DNA from: Lachnospiraceae bacterium | Lineage (GTDB): Bacteria; Bacillota; Clostridia; Lachnospirales; Lachnospiraceae | Reading direction: 5' to 3' | Assembly (NCBI GenBank): GCA_029068555.1 | Contig: JAIECJ010000093.1 | Span: 1 to 33,314 of the forward strand | Length of the DNA: 33,314 bases | Shown here: positions 1,479 to 15,669 of the stretch, in pieces | Layout of the letters: the number at the start of each line of letters is the position of its first letter | How positions within the stretch are numbered: position 1 is the stretch's first letter | Position numbers and translations under genes: made by a program | Notes under the pieces: model-generated | What the model was told of the DNA's origin: nothing | The model's input: only the letters and a program-made list of their open reading frames with translations | Databases searched by the model: none

Positions 1479-3539
1479 TTATCTCTTAAGGTTTACGAGT
1501 TCCTCAAGCAGCGTATCTGATGTTGTGATGATTCGGCTGTTTGCCTGGAATCCTCTCTGGGTTGTAATCATGTCTGTAAACTGCTGTGAGAGATCTACAT
1601 TTGACATCTCGAGGATACCGCTGTTGATGGAGCCGATACCTTCTGCCTTGATATCCACAACAGAAGCGTCACCGGAGCTTGCTGTTGTCTGATAGAGGTT
1701 ATCTCCTGCGTTCTCAAGTCCCATGGCATTCGCAAACTTCGCCACGCAAATCTGGCCGAGTGTTGCTGCCATACCATTGCTGTAGCTTGCTGTAATAATA
1801 CCGTCTGTTCCGACAGAAACACCGAGCAGTTTTCCGACCTTACGTCCGTCAACTCTCACACCGTCTACGGTGTTCTTCTTCTCGTTATCTACATTTGAGG
1901 TCTCTGACATATCGACAGTCAGATTCTCAAATTTTGTGTCAAGAGAGGATAAGTTCAAGGTAAAGGAAGACTCTCCCTCTGCACCTACATAGCTGAACTG
2001 TCCGTCATCTTCATTATACTTGATTGTCCATGACGTTGTACCGCCATTCCTCAATGCATCTATGTTTACTTCTGCCTTGTTGGTATCGGTAATTCCTAAC
2101 AGACTGATTTTGAACTCTCCTTTTATAACTTGTGAGGAAATCTGTGGCGTGTCAGTCATAAACGTATTTGTCTTGTCGCCCTTTGATCCCATACTGAGCA
2201 GCTTCATAATCGCTTCACCATAAGCGCTTCCTGCACTTACCTGGGTTCCGCTTCCATTATCTGCATTGATTATAGTTCCTGGTGCTGCTCCATACTTAAA
2301 TTCATATTTCGTTACCGAATCACCATTATCATCTGTATATGTTTGTTTAACAGATGTTATCGTTCCAGTCGTTCCACCAGCCACACCATAATTATATGTT
2401 ATTGTTCCATCTGTATTTGTTGCACCAGCAGTATAAAATGCAGCAACAGCCTCTTCAGGAATCACAATCGCATCTGTCACAGGGAACGATGTAGGCTGCG
2501 CCTTAACAAAACCTGTTCCTCCGGAGAAGTTGACTGTAAGTGTCATACCTCTCAATTCACTGTTGGTAAGAACTTTACCATCCAAATCTGCATCGCTGCC
2601 AATAAATGCACCCAGATCAACAGTTGCCCAGTCACCTGCTGCACCCATTGTATGTGTACCTGTCGTTGTAATACCTGCAAGAGACGACGTACCTCCATTA
2701 ACCACTTTCCGGACTTCTGTCTCCAGCTTTTCAAGCAGTTCAGGCGGCATCTCAGATGATTTCAGTGTTTTCTCACCATCAGCTGTCTGATATTTAAATG
2801 AAAGCTTTGATGTATCAACTTTATATATTGTATTTGAAGGTGTCCATTCATTCTCCGTGTTGAGTGTCGACCTTACCGTTGTCTGTTCAGAAGTTGCGGG
2901 AAGAATGCCAAACTGTACATTATAGGTATATCCAGCCTTATCATACACTGGAACATTTACCACCCTGCCGTTTTCATTCTGAAATTCAGAACTGTTAGAA
3001 TCAAGAATACCACTGATCCTGCCCCGTGTTGTGGCATCTGCTTCAAACACATCCACAGCCCTTGTATTAATCGGTCTCAGTGTTCCTTTTTGAACATCCC
3101 CATTCGCATCAACTCCCCAGCCCTGCACAATATAGCCAGTGCTTGCCATACAGAGGTTTCCGGCATCATCCACATCAAAGGAACCATCTCTTGTATAATA
3201 TGTACTTGTACCATCACTTACCACGAAAAACGCCTCGCCTGAAATCTTCAGGTCAAACGGATTTCCTGTTGACTGGTTTGCACCTTCCTGTGTAATGGTT
3301 GTATTAATCGCTGCTGCCTTTACACCAAGACCAATCTGTCTCGGGTTGGTACCACCTGTATTGTTTGCCGAATTTGCACCTGTGGCAGCCTGTGTCGTCT
3401 GGTACAGCATATCGGAGAAGTTCATCTGCTTTGCCTTGAATGCTGTTGTGTTTACGTTTGCAATATTGTTACCAATAACGTCCATTCTTGTCTGGTGTGT
3501 CCTTAAACCTGATACACCAGAGAAAAGTGATCTCATCAT
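1479..3539 (-). CDS. flgE: Flagellar hook protein FlgE
   Basis: 686 residues. The N-terminus MMRSLFSGVSGLRTHQTRMD followed by VIGNNIANVNTTAFK is the conserved rod/hook D0 segment. The C-terminus SNVDLSQQFTDMITTQRGFQ, then ANSRIITTSDTLLEELVNLKR, is the matching C-terminal D0 helix. FlgE polymerises outside the cell into the curved hook that joins rod to filament, after export by the flagellar type III apparatus. It is much longer than the roughly 400-residue enterobacterial protein; the extra length lies in the threonine/glycine-rich middle (about residues 230-560), which would be surface-exposed. A strong site (TAGGAGGT) lies 9 nt before the first of two adjacent ATGs; the second ATG is also possible. 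It is the last gene of the operon here, followed by a terminator. Confidence 0.96.
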   Translation of the reverse strand: MMRSLFSGVSGLRTHQTRMDVIGNNIANVNTTAFKAKQMNFSDMLYQTTQAATGANSANNTGGTNPRQIGLGVKAAAINTTITQEGANQSTGNPFDLKISGEAFFVVSDGTSTYYTRDGSFDVDDAGNLCMASTGYIVQGWGVDANGDVQKGTLRPINTRAVDVFEADATTRGRISGILDSNSSEFQNENGRVVNVPVYDKAGYTYNVQFGILPATSEQTTVRSTLNTENEWTPSNTIYKVDTSKLSFKYQTADGEKTLKSSEMPPELLEKLETEVRKVVNGGTSSLAGITTTGTHTMGAAGDWATVDLGAFIGSDADLDGKVLTNSELRGMTLTVNFSGGTGFVKAQPTSFPVTDAIVIPEEAVAAFYTAGATNTDGTITYNYGVAGGTTGTITSVKQTYTDDNGDSVTKYEFKYGAAPGTIINADNGSGTQVSAGSAYGEAIMKLLSMGSKGDKTNTFMTDTPQISSQVIKGEFKISLLGITDTNKAEVNIDALRNGGTTSWTIKYNEDDGQFSYVGAEGESSFTLNLSSLDTKFENLTVDMSETSNVDNEKKNTVDGVRVDGRKVGKLLGVSVGTDGIITASYSNGMAATLGQICVAKFANAMGLENAGDNLYQTTASSGDASVVDIKAEGIGSINSGILEMSNVDLSQQFTDMITTQRGFQANSRIITTSDTLLEELVNLKR

Positions 3540-13163: not shown

Positions 13164-13499
13164 TTAAATCTGTATCTGCATAATCTCCTTGTATGATTCC
13201 AAAAGCTTATCCCTAAGTGCAATCGTATAGTCAAGCGCTGTCTGTGCTTTTCCAACTGCTATTGTCAGGTCATGCGTATTCTCCGAGATACCCATTGCCC
13301 ACTTCAATATTTCATTCTCCTGATTTGACAATGCATTATTCGTGTCATTGATGTTGCTTACTGCCGCATCAAAAATTGATCCAAAAAGATTTGTCGGCTG
13401 CTCACTGCTGTCAGTGTTCGTGCCATACAAGCTGTTTCTGACTGCATCCGAACCAATTTTATAAAAACTATTAATATCATTTGCTGCTGTTACTGTCAT
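13164..13499 (-). CDS. fliE: Flagellar hook-basal body protein FliE
   Basis: 111 residues. The C-terminal part (ENTHDLTIAVGKAQTALDYT followed by IALRDKLLESYKEIMQIQI) is the conserved FliE helical pair. FliE is the junction between the MS ring and the rod and is the first export substrate. A GGGGGGAATCAC stretch supplies the ribosome site. The position between flgC and fliF is the standard one. Confidence 0.95.
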   Translation of the reverse strand: MTVTAANDINSFYKIGSDAVRNSLYGTNTDSSEQPTNLFGSIFDAAVSNINDTNNALSNQENEILKWAMGISENTHDLTIAVGKAQTALDYTIALRDKLLESYKEIMQIQI

Positions 13500-13542: not shown

Positions 13543-14037
13543 TTAAAAATTCATCTCTAACCCTTTGCTCGCCATCGCCTTTGTCGCTTCAAACGCTGCC
13601 TGATTTGCCTCATAGCCGCGGCTTGCATCAATCATGTTCGTCATTTCTGTTATCACATTCACATTCGGATAGTGAACATACCCATTCTCATCCGCATCAG
13701 GATGCTCTGGGTCATATGTCATGACTTCCTCTGTCCATGTATCCTCATACACGCCCCTCACCTTGACTCCTGTTCCAGGGCTTGACAGTTCTGCCGAATT
13801 GGTACATCCAAGCGGTCTGCCGCTCAGATTACTGAATGCGGTATCAAGCATATGTGAGAATTTTCTGTTCTTGGTATCTGTCTTTTCCTGAAATGTGACA
13901 ACCTTTCTGACGTACGGCGTACCGTCCTCAGTTCTTGTTGAATGTGCATTTGCCATATTCTGCGAAATGATATCCATTCGGTATCTCTCGGCCGACATTC
14001 CCGATGCACTAATGTCAAATGAATCAAATATTCCCAT
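13543..14037 (-). CDS. flgC: Flagellar basal-body rod protein FlgC
   Basis: 164 residues. The N-terminus MGIFDSFDISASGMSAERYR followed by MDIISQNMANAHSTRTEDGT is the proximal rod signature, and the C-terminus (NVITEMTNMIDASRGYEANQAAFEATKAM) is the paired D0 helix. FlgC is a proximal rod subunit. The ribosome site is GGGGGG. It lies 12 bp after flgB. Confidence 0.97.
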   Translation of the reverse strand: MGIFDSFDISASGMSAERYRMDIISQNMANAHSTRTEDGTPYVRKVVTFQEKTDTKNRKFSHMLDTAFSNLSGRPLGCTNSAELSSPGTGVKVRGVYEDTWTEEVMTYDPEHPDADENGYVHYPNVNVITEMTNMIDASRGYEANQAAFEATKAMASKGLEMNF

Positions 14038-14049
14038 TTAGCATCCCCC

Positions 14050-14442
14050 CTATTTCATTACTGATTTTAACTGTGTGAAATTCCTATTGAGCAAATCCAT
14101 CATTCCATTGTACTTGATACTATTCTTCGCAAGTATTGCCTGCTCATTGTTGATATCCACATTGTTTCCGTCATACCGGAAAGAAAGCTCCGCATAATCT
14201 GTGTAAATCTCTGGGGTGAGCGCTTCCAAATCAAGATTCTTTACTCTTGCATCCACTGTATCTTCACTCGACCTTGCAAACGCATGCTTGAGCTCTGTCT
14301 CAAAGCGGATATCTTTTCTCTTGTAATTTGGAGTGTTTATATTAGCGATGTTGTTATTAATAATGTCATTCCTTGTTGCCGCTGCATCCAATGAAGTTCC
14401 CAGAACGTTAACGTAATCAAACACACCTGAACTATTTAACAT
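14050..14442 (-). CDS. flgB: Flagellar basal-body rod protein FlgB
   Basis: 130 residues. AATRNDIINNNIANINTPNYKRKD is the typical FlgB N-terminal motif, and NVDINNEQAILAKNSIKYN with the following LLNRNFTQLKSVMK is the C-terminal one. FlgB is a proximal rod subunit. It is the first gene of the flagellar operon, and the ATG follows AAAAGGAGG. A SigA promoter with an overlapping CodY-box-like sequence lies about 105-130 bp upstream. Confidence 0.97.
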   Translation of the reverse strand: MLNSSGVFDYVNVLGTSLDAAATRNDIINNNIANINTPNYKRKDIRFETELKHAFARSSEDTVDARVKNLDLEALTPEIYTDYAELSFRYDGNNVDINNEQAILAKNSIKYNGMMDLLNRNFTQLKSVMK

Positions 14443-14483: not shown

Positions 14484-14517
14484 AACCCCTATGTAAACCA
14501 TTATTCTTTCGAATAAA
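14484..14517 (-). other. flgB operon leader with short stem-loops
   Basis: On the minus strand TTATTC GAAA GAATAA forms a 6-bp stem with a GAAA tetraloop, and TTTAC...GTAAA follows. No known riboswitch consensus was recognised. Confidence 0.4.
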
Positions 14518-14546
14518 TTTACATAACTTATTACCTTTCTTATTCT

Positions 14547-14574
14547 ATTATAGATTATTTTCAGAATATTTCAA
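14547..14574 (-). promoter_or_regulatory. flgB: SigA-type promoter of the flagellar operon
   Basis: -35 TTGAAA at 14569-14574, 16-bp spacer, and perfect -10 TATAAT at 14547-14552, reading toward flgB. Transcription would start near 14540, giving a leader of about 100 nt. No SigD-type (GCCGATAT) promoter is seen, in line with an early-class operon. Confidence 0.8.
14556..14570. promoter_or_regulatory. Candidate CodY box in the flgB operon promoter
   Basis: Read on the minus strand, AATATTCTGAAAATA matches the CodY consensus AATTTTCWGAAAATT at 13 of 15 positions. It overlaps the last two bases of the -35 and fills most of the spacer, so bound CodY would block RNA polymerase. codY itself is the next gene upstream. 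CodY repression of fla/che is established in Bacillus subtilis; here it is inferred. Confidence 0.7.
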
Positions 14575-14662
14575 GTATTTTTTTCATTATTTTGTAATAT
14601 TATGTGAATTTGGCGGCTTTTATTATGTAAATTTATTATTTTTACCCCGCAAAACAAAAAAA

Positions 14663-14706
14663 GAACTTATCTTTTCTCAATAAATGAGTGAGATAAGCTC
14701 TTTGTT
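14663..14706. terminator. codY: Bidirectional-looking terminator after codY
   Basis: An 11-of-12-bp stem (AAAGAACTTATC with GATAAGCTCTTT) has an inner CTCA/TGAG pairing. A T-rich run follows on both strands (minus strand: TTTTTTTGTTTTG). It would end the codY transcript and insulate the flgB promoter. Confidence 0.8.
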
Positions 14707-14774
14707 GTGTTTTTTTATTCTTTTTATATTATTCAGACAATTTACATTTTCCCAATGCCGGAACGTATATGTTC

Positions 14775-15560
14775 TTACTTATTTAACTGTCGTTTCAGTG
14801 CTTCCACTTCCTCAAACACAACGTCATTCAAAACCTTGATATAAGTTCCTTTCATACCTGACGAACGTGACTCAATAACACCTGCACTCTCAAATTTGCG
14901 GAGCGCATTGACAATAACACTTCTCGTAATACCAACACGATCTGCTATCTTACTGGCGACAAGTATGCCCTCCGTCCCGTTCAGTTCATCGAAAATGTGT
15001 GTAATTGCCTCCATCTCTGAAAAGGAAAGCGTGGATATCGCAGACTTGACAACTGCCACCTTGCGGCTCTCCTCCGCATTCTCCTCGCTCACAGCGCGGA
15101 GCATCTCAAGACCTACCACTGTCACACCATACTCGCACAGAATAATATCGTCAATATCGTACTGTTCATTGCACTTATATATAAATAATGTTCCCAAACG
15201 TTCCCCGGCAATCTCAATCGGTGTAATAACCGCCTGGTATTTACGGATATCCTCGCTCTCAAATCCAAGCGTTGCAAGGTTTACGTTCTCTTTTGTCGAC
15301 AGCACGCTGAGAAGCCTTTCGTTTAACATCGGATCAATAAAACCGCCCACATTATCCTCGACAAGCTCCTTCAGTTCGTCCACTCCTTCACAATTTCCGA
15401 CGCCCAGAACTTTTCCCTTTTTGCTGATTACCAAAACATTTGAATTGACAATGTCCCGAATTACTTTGCAGATATCATTAAAAACCACCTTACTGGAGTT
15501 ATTATTGTGTAAAAGTTTTCCTATTTTTCTCGTTTTGTCTAATAATTGAACACTACCCAT
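14775..15560 (-). CDS. codY: GTP/branched-chain amino acid sensing transcriptional repressor CodY
   Basis: 261 residues, near the 259 of Bacillus subtilis CodY. The N-terminal GAF domain (about 1-155) binds isoleucine, leucine and valine in known members, with GTP sensing in many. The C-terminal winged helix is almost unchanged from the family: VASKIADRVGITRSVIVNAL followed by RKFESAGVIESRSSGMKGTY. CodY represses starvation, transport and motility genes in rich medium. The ATG at 15560 (MGSVQLL) follows TTGGAGG by 6 nt and is preferred to a TTG two codons upstream. It has its own promoter and terminator and lies immediately ahead of the flagellar operon, as in Bacillus. Confidence 0.97.
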   Translation of the reverse strand: MGSVQLLDKTRKIGKLLHNNNSSKVVFNDICKVIRDIVNSNVLVISKKGKVLGVGNCEGVDELKELVEDNVGGFIDPMLNERLLSVLSTKENVNLATLGFESEDIRKYQAVITPIEIAGERLGTLFIYKCNEQYDIDDIILCEYGVTVVGLEMLRAVSEENAEESRKVAVVKSAISTLSFSEMEAITHIFDELNGTEGILVASKIADRVGITRSVIVNALRKFESAGVIESRSSGMKGTYIKVLNDVVFEEVEALKRQLNK

Positions 15561-15669
15561 AGCCAACCTCCAAGTTCTTTTTGCAATTTTCTTACGCTTT
15601 CAAACGGACCTTACCGCAAGCGCAAAGCCCCGACCTGAATTGCTACACTAAAATCCATTTATAAGGAAA

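Follow-up and report, generated by a model that had tools for sequence, protein, structure and literature searches.

The flgB promoter in a 33,314-nucleotide stretch of Lachnospiraceae DNA (hereafter ‘the window’, meaning the whole stretch that was analysed) contains a CodY-type box that is conserved in most of the genus (26 of 33 promoters) and lies beside the gene for a CodY protein with the recognition segment of structurally solved CodYs. The same motif recurs at fixed positions in the promoters of motA, cheV and flagellin genes. From these sequence comparisons we consider it probable that the neighbouring CodY uses the flgB site as its operator and that the site belongs to a motility regulon that extends across the genus. 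An initial annotation of the window, which had proposed a nutrient-responsive CodY switch on the flagellar operon, was right in kind; it was too broad (the pattern holds for one genus), too certain of the ligand, and too sparing in its targets, since the motA, cheV and flagellin promoters share the box.

The locus is read on the minus strand in the order codY, a probable terminator, the promoter (14574–14547) and flgB, which heads a long flagellar operon (Table 1). The promoter is of the SigA type (TTGAAA, 16 nt, TATAAT), with a match at 11 of 12 hexamer positions. The box, TATTTTCAGAATATT (minus strand AATATTCTGAAAATA), differs from the consensus AATTTTCWGAAAATT at two positions; it starts at the fifth base of the −35 hexamer, stops 3 nt short of the −10 hexamer, and fills the gap between the two. 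The consensus scan and the promoter scan agree on this arrangement, as had been proposed. The assignment of the adjoining upstream gene as codY also held, the product matching the Pfam families CodY (2.1e-36) and HTH_CodY (5.5e-30) and, in a phmmer search, solved CodY chains (8.9e-67). The terminator hairpin overlaps below-threshold Rfam matches and is absent from the output of the promoter scan. The motA gene of the same genome, with a box of its own, lies on a different contig (G000:C200), close to its start.

Table 1. Features of the codY–flgB locus, with positions numbered from the first base of the window.
Feature	Position	Strand	Basis or remark
codY	14775..15566	−	TTG start as listed; ATG 6 nt downstream
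Probable intrinsic terminator of codY	about 14662..14713	−	Hairpin then T-run; read by eye
−35 hexamer TTGAAA, flgB promoter	14569..14574	−	Promoter scan
CodY-type box AATATTCTGAAAATA	14556..14570	−	13 of 15 to consensus
−10 hexamer TATAAT, flgB promoter	14547..14552	−	Promoter scan
Dyad TTATGTAAA...TTTACATA, flgB leader	14490..14526	−	Second conserved element, separate from box
flgB, first gene of flagellar operon	14050..14442	−	Pfam Flg_bb_rod; FlgB name by position
Gene for FlgC-type rod protein, second gene	13543..14037	−	Pfam Flg_bbr_C, Flg_bb_rod
fliE, third gene	13164..13499	−	Pfam FliE
FlgE-type hook gene, near far end of window	1479..3539	−	

Taken by itself, the single box in the window is mildly unusual and constitutes weak evidence, because a site with two or fewer mismatches also appeared in 34 of 2000 dinucleotide shuffles of the 332-nt gap between codY and flgB. 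Across the window as a whole we counted eight sites with three or fewer mismatches; 100 shuffles gave 3.1 on average, and two of them reached eight. The weight of the argument is carried by comparative data rather than by the lone flgB site.

Within the GTDB genus to which the window belongs, a search with FlgB at E ≤ 0.001 gave a match in 37 of 38 genomes, other rod proteins accounting for some of the matches; 33 upstream regions were read (30 from this FlgB search and three from another). The promoter form TTG-N3-N16-TATAAT is kept in all 33. At the register of the box, 22 promoters have two mismatches to the CodY consensus and four have three, giving 26 of 33 with three or fewer; the remaining seven, with four or more, have decayed boxes (L022, L026, L027, L028, L031, L066 and L067). 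Mean column identity is 0.93 across the box, 0.995–1.0 in the hexamers, and 0.60–0.69 in the outer flanks. Promoter spacers normally vary freely, and the identity of this one therefore points to a protein binding site, although neighbouring stretches are conserved too (0.83 for the A-tract before the −35 element and 0.89 for the 8 nt after the −10 element).

Beyond the genus, we compared flgB loci from elsewhere in the family, 77 in all and nearly always one per genus, using up to 500 nt of upstream sequence (two regions were shorter, at 212 and 66 nt). The best match to the CodY box had three to six mismatches in 76 loci and two in one (L097), where the site lies 142 nt upstream and the promoter at 52. 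In none of the 77 did the best site fall inside the flgB promoter at three or fewer mismatches, a result that rules out a strong CodY box at flgB across the family. Among 48 named flgB loci (one labelled Roseburia and none Agathobacter), the box lies in the promoter of L158 alone, and L146 is without it; both are taken as members of the genus, because the FlgB of each is identical to one in the genus set. Another locus, L153, has a two-mismatch site far from its promoter, and the Roseburia locus (L225, from a metagenome-assembled genome) keeps the promoter, with a best site at four mismatches. The expectation that the box would be conserved upstream of flgB in other genera failed in those sampled, which retain the promoter but show no strong box in it, the outcome that the initial annotation had named as refuting its proposal. 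As the box is kept in 26 of 33 promoters inside the genus, we take this outcome to limit the claim to the genus.

In many other genera the flgB promoter has a common form, consisting of TTGTNTTTTT, four free bases, AAAT and TATAAT; this combination of T-run, AAAT and 16-nt gap is widespread in family loci L069–L133. An exact TTG-N3-N16-TA(T/G)AAT, in which TTG is followed by the T-run and AAAT precedes the −10 element, occurs in 41 of 65 family loci, the 24 loci with other spacings being dropped from the mismatch count. At the box register those 41 have 4–11 mismatches to the CodY consensus (12 of them at four or five), with a mean of 6.6 against 9.2 for shuffled spacers. As many as five mismatches are compatible with a functional CodY site (PMC10415144, as described in the accessible part of that report), so that weak CodY control may exist in other genera. 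The genus promoter aligns on the family-wide form, which suggests that the box is an older spacer sharpened at the level of the genus. Five of six flagellated genomes of other genera that have no codY match retain the T-run, and part of the spacer pattern is therefore independent of CodY. A comparison of box loss with codY loss in other genera was abandoned, as only two of the six codY-less flagellated loci have the exact promoter form, too few for the purpose.

These family-wide features raise the question of whether the flgB site might be a by-product of the promoter spacer, with its T-run and AAAT, and its likeness to a CodY site incidental. The number of family loci that share the exact form, their lower mismatch count relative to shuffled spacers, and the alignment of the genus promoter on that form all favour such an origin. 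It would nevertheless leave unexplained why 26 of the 33 genus promoters stand at two or three mismatches and why the same motif appears at unrelated promoters (those of a sigma-28 flagellin gene, motA and cheV), and we regard it as very improbable.

The box also occurs elsewhere in the window's own genome. The perfect site (15 of 15) precedes motA-motB; intergenic sites matching at 14 of 15 precede a flagellin gene with a sigma-28 promoter, cheV, and (by 127 nt) an ftsH-like gene labelled by eye; and sites with two mismatches precede flgB, a second flagellin gene, and a gene taken as flgN by position (for which Pfam returned nothing useful). Among the products encoded behind these boxes, Pfam confirmed MotA, MotB, the flagellin and, for cheV, a CheW domain with a receiver domain. 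At two or fewer mismatches the genome contains 88 sites, against 26 for the reversed motif. Fifty of the 88 were examined, and the survey of further metabolic targets extended to these 50; 18 of the 36 in one batch lie inside genes, and others front apt-like, guaB-like and further genes (labels by eye).

We extended this count to the 38 genus genomes using the near-perfect motif WATTTTCWGAAAATW, which gave 83 forward sites and six for the reversed-motif control (summed by hand). Of these, 75 were listed and examined, the other eight belonging to genomes G033, G034, G036 and G037. Forty-seven of the 75 front motility or chemotaxis genes, two front an unnamed gene pair, 17 are in other intergenic positions, and nine are inside genes. 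The 47 comprise fliC (15), motA (15, one of which was moved by hand from the coding class on the evidence of the ortholog test below), cheV (8), fliD-like (6), and one each for flgN-like, fliK and chemoreceptor-like genes; the flgN label was given by eye, the chemoreceptor label represents Pfam matches below the cut-off, and FliD-like and FliK come from a domain search. Because orthologs share ancestry, these sites cannot be counted as separate events. What does stand as independent is the finding of the box at a minimum of six kinds of motility gene (at least flgB, motA, cheV, flagellin, fliD-like and fliK).

Orthologous upstream regions gave a similar picture. Of 30 genus motA loci, one has no upstream DNA; the other 29 include 13 perfect boxes, seven at one mismatch, three at two and six at four or five, so that 23 of 29 have two or fewer (0.7% for shuffled upstream regions). 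Thirty cheV loci comprise nine at one mismatch, 13 at two, six at three and two at four or five, with 22 of 30 at two or fewer (0.2% for shuffled upstream regions). Three further genomes for motA and five for cheV lie outside these sets. The strength of the box at flgB and at motA is correlated across 26 genomes (Spearman 0.78, with no correction for kinship): 18 genomes have good boxes at both, four have poor boxes at both, and four are mixed (Fisher p 0.013, likewise uncorrected). Outside the genus, none of 29 motA loci (from 29 of the 76 matching genomes) has a box at two or fewer mismatches within 300 nt. From the whole of this evidence the pattern looks like a genus-wide motility regulon, as predicted from sequence.

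In 150 family genomes, including the window's own, there are 20 perfect forward sites in 18 genomes and two control sites; of the 19 that lie in other genomes, 17 were read, and they have no single theme. Single genomes in other genera have perfect boxes before motA (L303, in genome G153, about 297 nt upstream), a FliD-like gene (L319), a FapA gene (L314) and a RelA/SpoT-type gene (L309). At six loci (L454, L452, L465, L470, L472 and L240) a near-perfect box precedes a gene for a short protein beginning MNINSSRN, which carries a FliD C-terminal match where tested (L454); in four of the six, the box lies 33–34 nt before NCGATAT. Two other near-perfect boxes (L261 and L267) are found 247 and 315 nt before a phenylacetate-CoA ligase-like gene, labelled by eye.

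The boxes are placed at two recurrent spacings relative to the promoter elements. Flagellin boxes stop 3 nt before NCGATAT in 14 of 15 cases (4 nt in the other), and flgB boxes stop 3 nt before TATAAT. Those at motA (two or fewer mismatches) stop 1 nt before TTGCAA in 23 of 23 cases, and those at cheV (three or fewer mismatches) stop 1 nt before TTG in 27 of 28. The fliD-like, flgN-like and fliK sites show neither spacing. Such a pair of registers, recurring at promoters read by two different sigma factors, would be expected of one operator used in two ways.

We infer that the protein reading the box is CodY and that it acts, at least in part, as a repressor. An active CodY dimer would bind the 15-bp dyad; at flgB (SigA) and at the flagellin genes (sigma-28) it would sit between the −35 and −10 elements, ending 3 nt before the latter, and should block RNA polymerase, because the box fills the gap between them. 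At motA and cheV the box stops 1 nt short of the −35 element, and CodY bound there could either repress through overlap or influence the polymerase from an upstream position. The register between the hexamers should thus repress, and the upstream register could do either. A variant of this scheme, compatible with it, is that CodY activates some targets (motA and cheV) and so balances the parts of the motility system; the place just before the −35 element is an activator-like one and is held at motA and cheV almost without exception, unlike the place between the hexamers at flgB and flagellin genes. Repression from that same place is equally possible, however, and we judge activation unlikely.

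The codY gene product was compared with CodYs of known structure and with 110 CodYs of close relatives (the top 30 loci of one search and 80 of another). Its 21-residue recognition segment is identical to that of the three solved CodY chains shown in the phmmer alignment, and within the 110 it is invariant except at R210 (arginine in 96). The positions matching Ser215 and Met237, whose roles are described in the accessible part of PMC10415144, are invariant in all 110. The same source lists Val22, Phe24 and Glu153 as guanine contacts, Ser43, Arg44, Arg45 and Lys47 as phosphate contacts, and Arg61 as holding the isoleucine carboxylate. The guanine contacts are kept (valine in 108 of 110, with phenylalanine in two; phenylalanine in 110; glutamate in 110), and the basic phosphate-contact positions align as lysine or arginine. 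It is therefore plausible, as far as residue conservation can indicate, that the CodY of this genus senses GTP.

Sensing of isoleucine is uncertain and should not be assumed. The position aligned with Arg61 is glutamate in the window and is glutamate in 52, serine in 31, threonine in 9 and proline in 9 of the 110 CodYs, with a nearby two-residue insertion that makes the alignment unsure. Residues 58–79, around Bacillus Arg61, are rebuilt, with G74 and D78 invariant in 110 of 110; a different ligand pocket is possible. Among targets, no box at two or fewer mismatches was found upstream of leuB-ilvD in ten regions (one of which, L439, ends 685 nt before leuB at a contig end), and four of the ten have intergenic sites with three mismatches, one of them (L441) in the gap before leuB. 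Upstream regions of ilvD gave 0 of 29 at three or fewer mismatches; as ilvD (labelled by eye) lies behind leuB, these do not form a clean CodY control, and the longer leuB-ilvD regions were used instead. The proposal that branched-chain amino acids keep the operon off is thus uncertain on two counts, namely that the Arg61 position is glutamate, serine, threonine or proline in 101 of 110 proteins and that leuB-ilvD is not preceded by a strong box.

Several of these observations would also suit a different reader of the box, namely another motility regulator with a CodY-like site, codY being merely a neighbour. The sites are mostly at motility genes, with none that is strong at leuB-ilvD. Their architecture is also unusual for CodY: a typical CodY site is a 24-nt double site of two boxes overlapping by 6 nt, which is typical and not required (PMC10415144, in the part accessible). 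An overlapping second box at ±9 is absent here (mean mismatch 6.2–8.6 in four gene classes), and weaker second boxes are found at −30 in flagellin genes (mean 4.4) and at +11 at motA (mean 4.1, partly self-overlap). Since the overlapping double site is missing, we file the site as a predicted single-box variant of the CodY operator. Box and codY are also not always found together. The gene is kept in four genomes whose flgB and motA boxes are both poor (G009, G019, G030 and G037). Conversely, G035 (97% complete) retains a cheV box at two mismatches with no match for flgB, motA or codY, a joint loss that may be one deletion, as codY adjoins flgB; and perfect motA boxes accompany the lack of a codY match in G020 (97% complete, with a contig break 319 nt before flgB), G011 (66%) and G028 (76%). 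In G014 (78% complete) there is no match for codY, motA or cheV.

The cases of G020, G011 and G028 can, however, be explained by contig breaks or incompleteness. Other observations speak directly for CodY: the sites match its consensus at up to 15 of 15 positions, the DNA-recognition residues of the protein are intact, 28 of the 33 genus flgB loci also carry codY (a codY match being found in 33 of the 38 genomes), and G035 lacks matches for flgB, motA and codY together. No other candidate regulator came up, in a search for one that was unsystematic. On balance, a regulator other than CodY seems to us improbable, and we retain CodY as the preferred reader of the box.

A second conserved element is found near the flgB promoter. 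The dyad in the flgB leader (Table 1) is drawn as a hairpin in many relatives by single-sequence folding, and RNAalifold gave no consensus structure for the leader. A c-di-GMP riboswitch was considered for this leader and set aside, as Rfam gave three below-threshold matches only, none of that kind. Two copies or near-copies of the element (TTATGTAAA / TTTACATAA) lie upstream of the flgB promoter, at 14600–14608 and 14623–14631. The dyad and its copies suggest another motility regulator or a form of leader control. By eye, the motif TGTAA-N6-TTACA is seen just downstream of the sigma-28 −10 element at flagellin loci (including L001, L263, L449 and L462), and TTTATGTAACCTTACAG is seen within the spacer of many motA promoters (loci L320–L349); both possibly reflect the same second regulator as the leader dyad.

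MogR is a motility repressor, and its site (TTTT-N5-AAAA) differs in spacing from the TTTTC-W-GAAAA found here. In Listeria, MogR represses flagellar and chemotaxis genes, and it is otherwise known only in the B. cereus group (PMC7793685, in the part accessible). Other close parallels involve CodY itself. Binding of Bacillus subtilis CodY to the flgB and hag promoters has been reported, as cited in the accessible part of PMC4793158; that same text records a dispute, in which a codY deletion had no effect on motility and a genome-wide map had no CodY site controlling flgB. The fla/che precedent invoked in the initial annotation is therefore disputed in print. The boxes of the genus studied here differ from that system in being near-perfect at motA, cheV and the flagellin genes (13 of 15 at flgB), conserved, and fixed in position. 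In four Eubacterium and Roseburia species codY is beside flgB-fliA, and in a fifth it is fused to a topoisomerase gene (PMC3720852, in the part accessible); the authors already raised CodY control of motility. The gene order is the same here; the accessible text of that report names no operator, and the non-genus loci that we examined have a flgB promoter without a strong box, unlike the window's genus. A CodY regulon predicted by bioinformatics in Synergistetes possibly takes in genes for motility and chemotaxis in one of the species (PMC9318921, in the part accessible); it belongs to a different phylum and has a different, extended consensus. In a literature search of partial coverage that took in few subscription journals, we met no description of CodY boxes in the flgB, motA, cheV or flagellin promoters of Lachnospiraceae.

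A possibility that reaches further than the predicted genus-wide CodY-type motility regulon, which we put forward tentatively and as something short of likely, is that the CodY of this genus, originally a global amino-acid regulator, is now devoted mainly to motility and acts at three tiers at once (the SigA basal-body operon, the stator and chemotaxis genes, and the sigma-28 flagellin genes) through single near-perfect boxes at two fixed registers, and that its altered branched-chain amino acid pocket may answer another signal. Gut Lachnospiraceae have flagellins that are strong antigens for innate immunity, and little is known of how the onset of flagella is controlled in these bacteria. A defined motif at flgB, motA, cheV and flagellin promoters turns a 2013 speculation, based on the position of codY beside flgB (PMC3720852), into precise predictions. 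Swimming may be tied to nutrient state in this gut genus, and the pattern raises the question of whether a nutrient sensor with global reach can turn into a specialist for motility.
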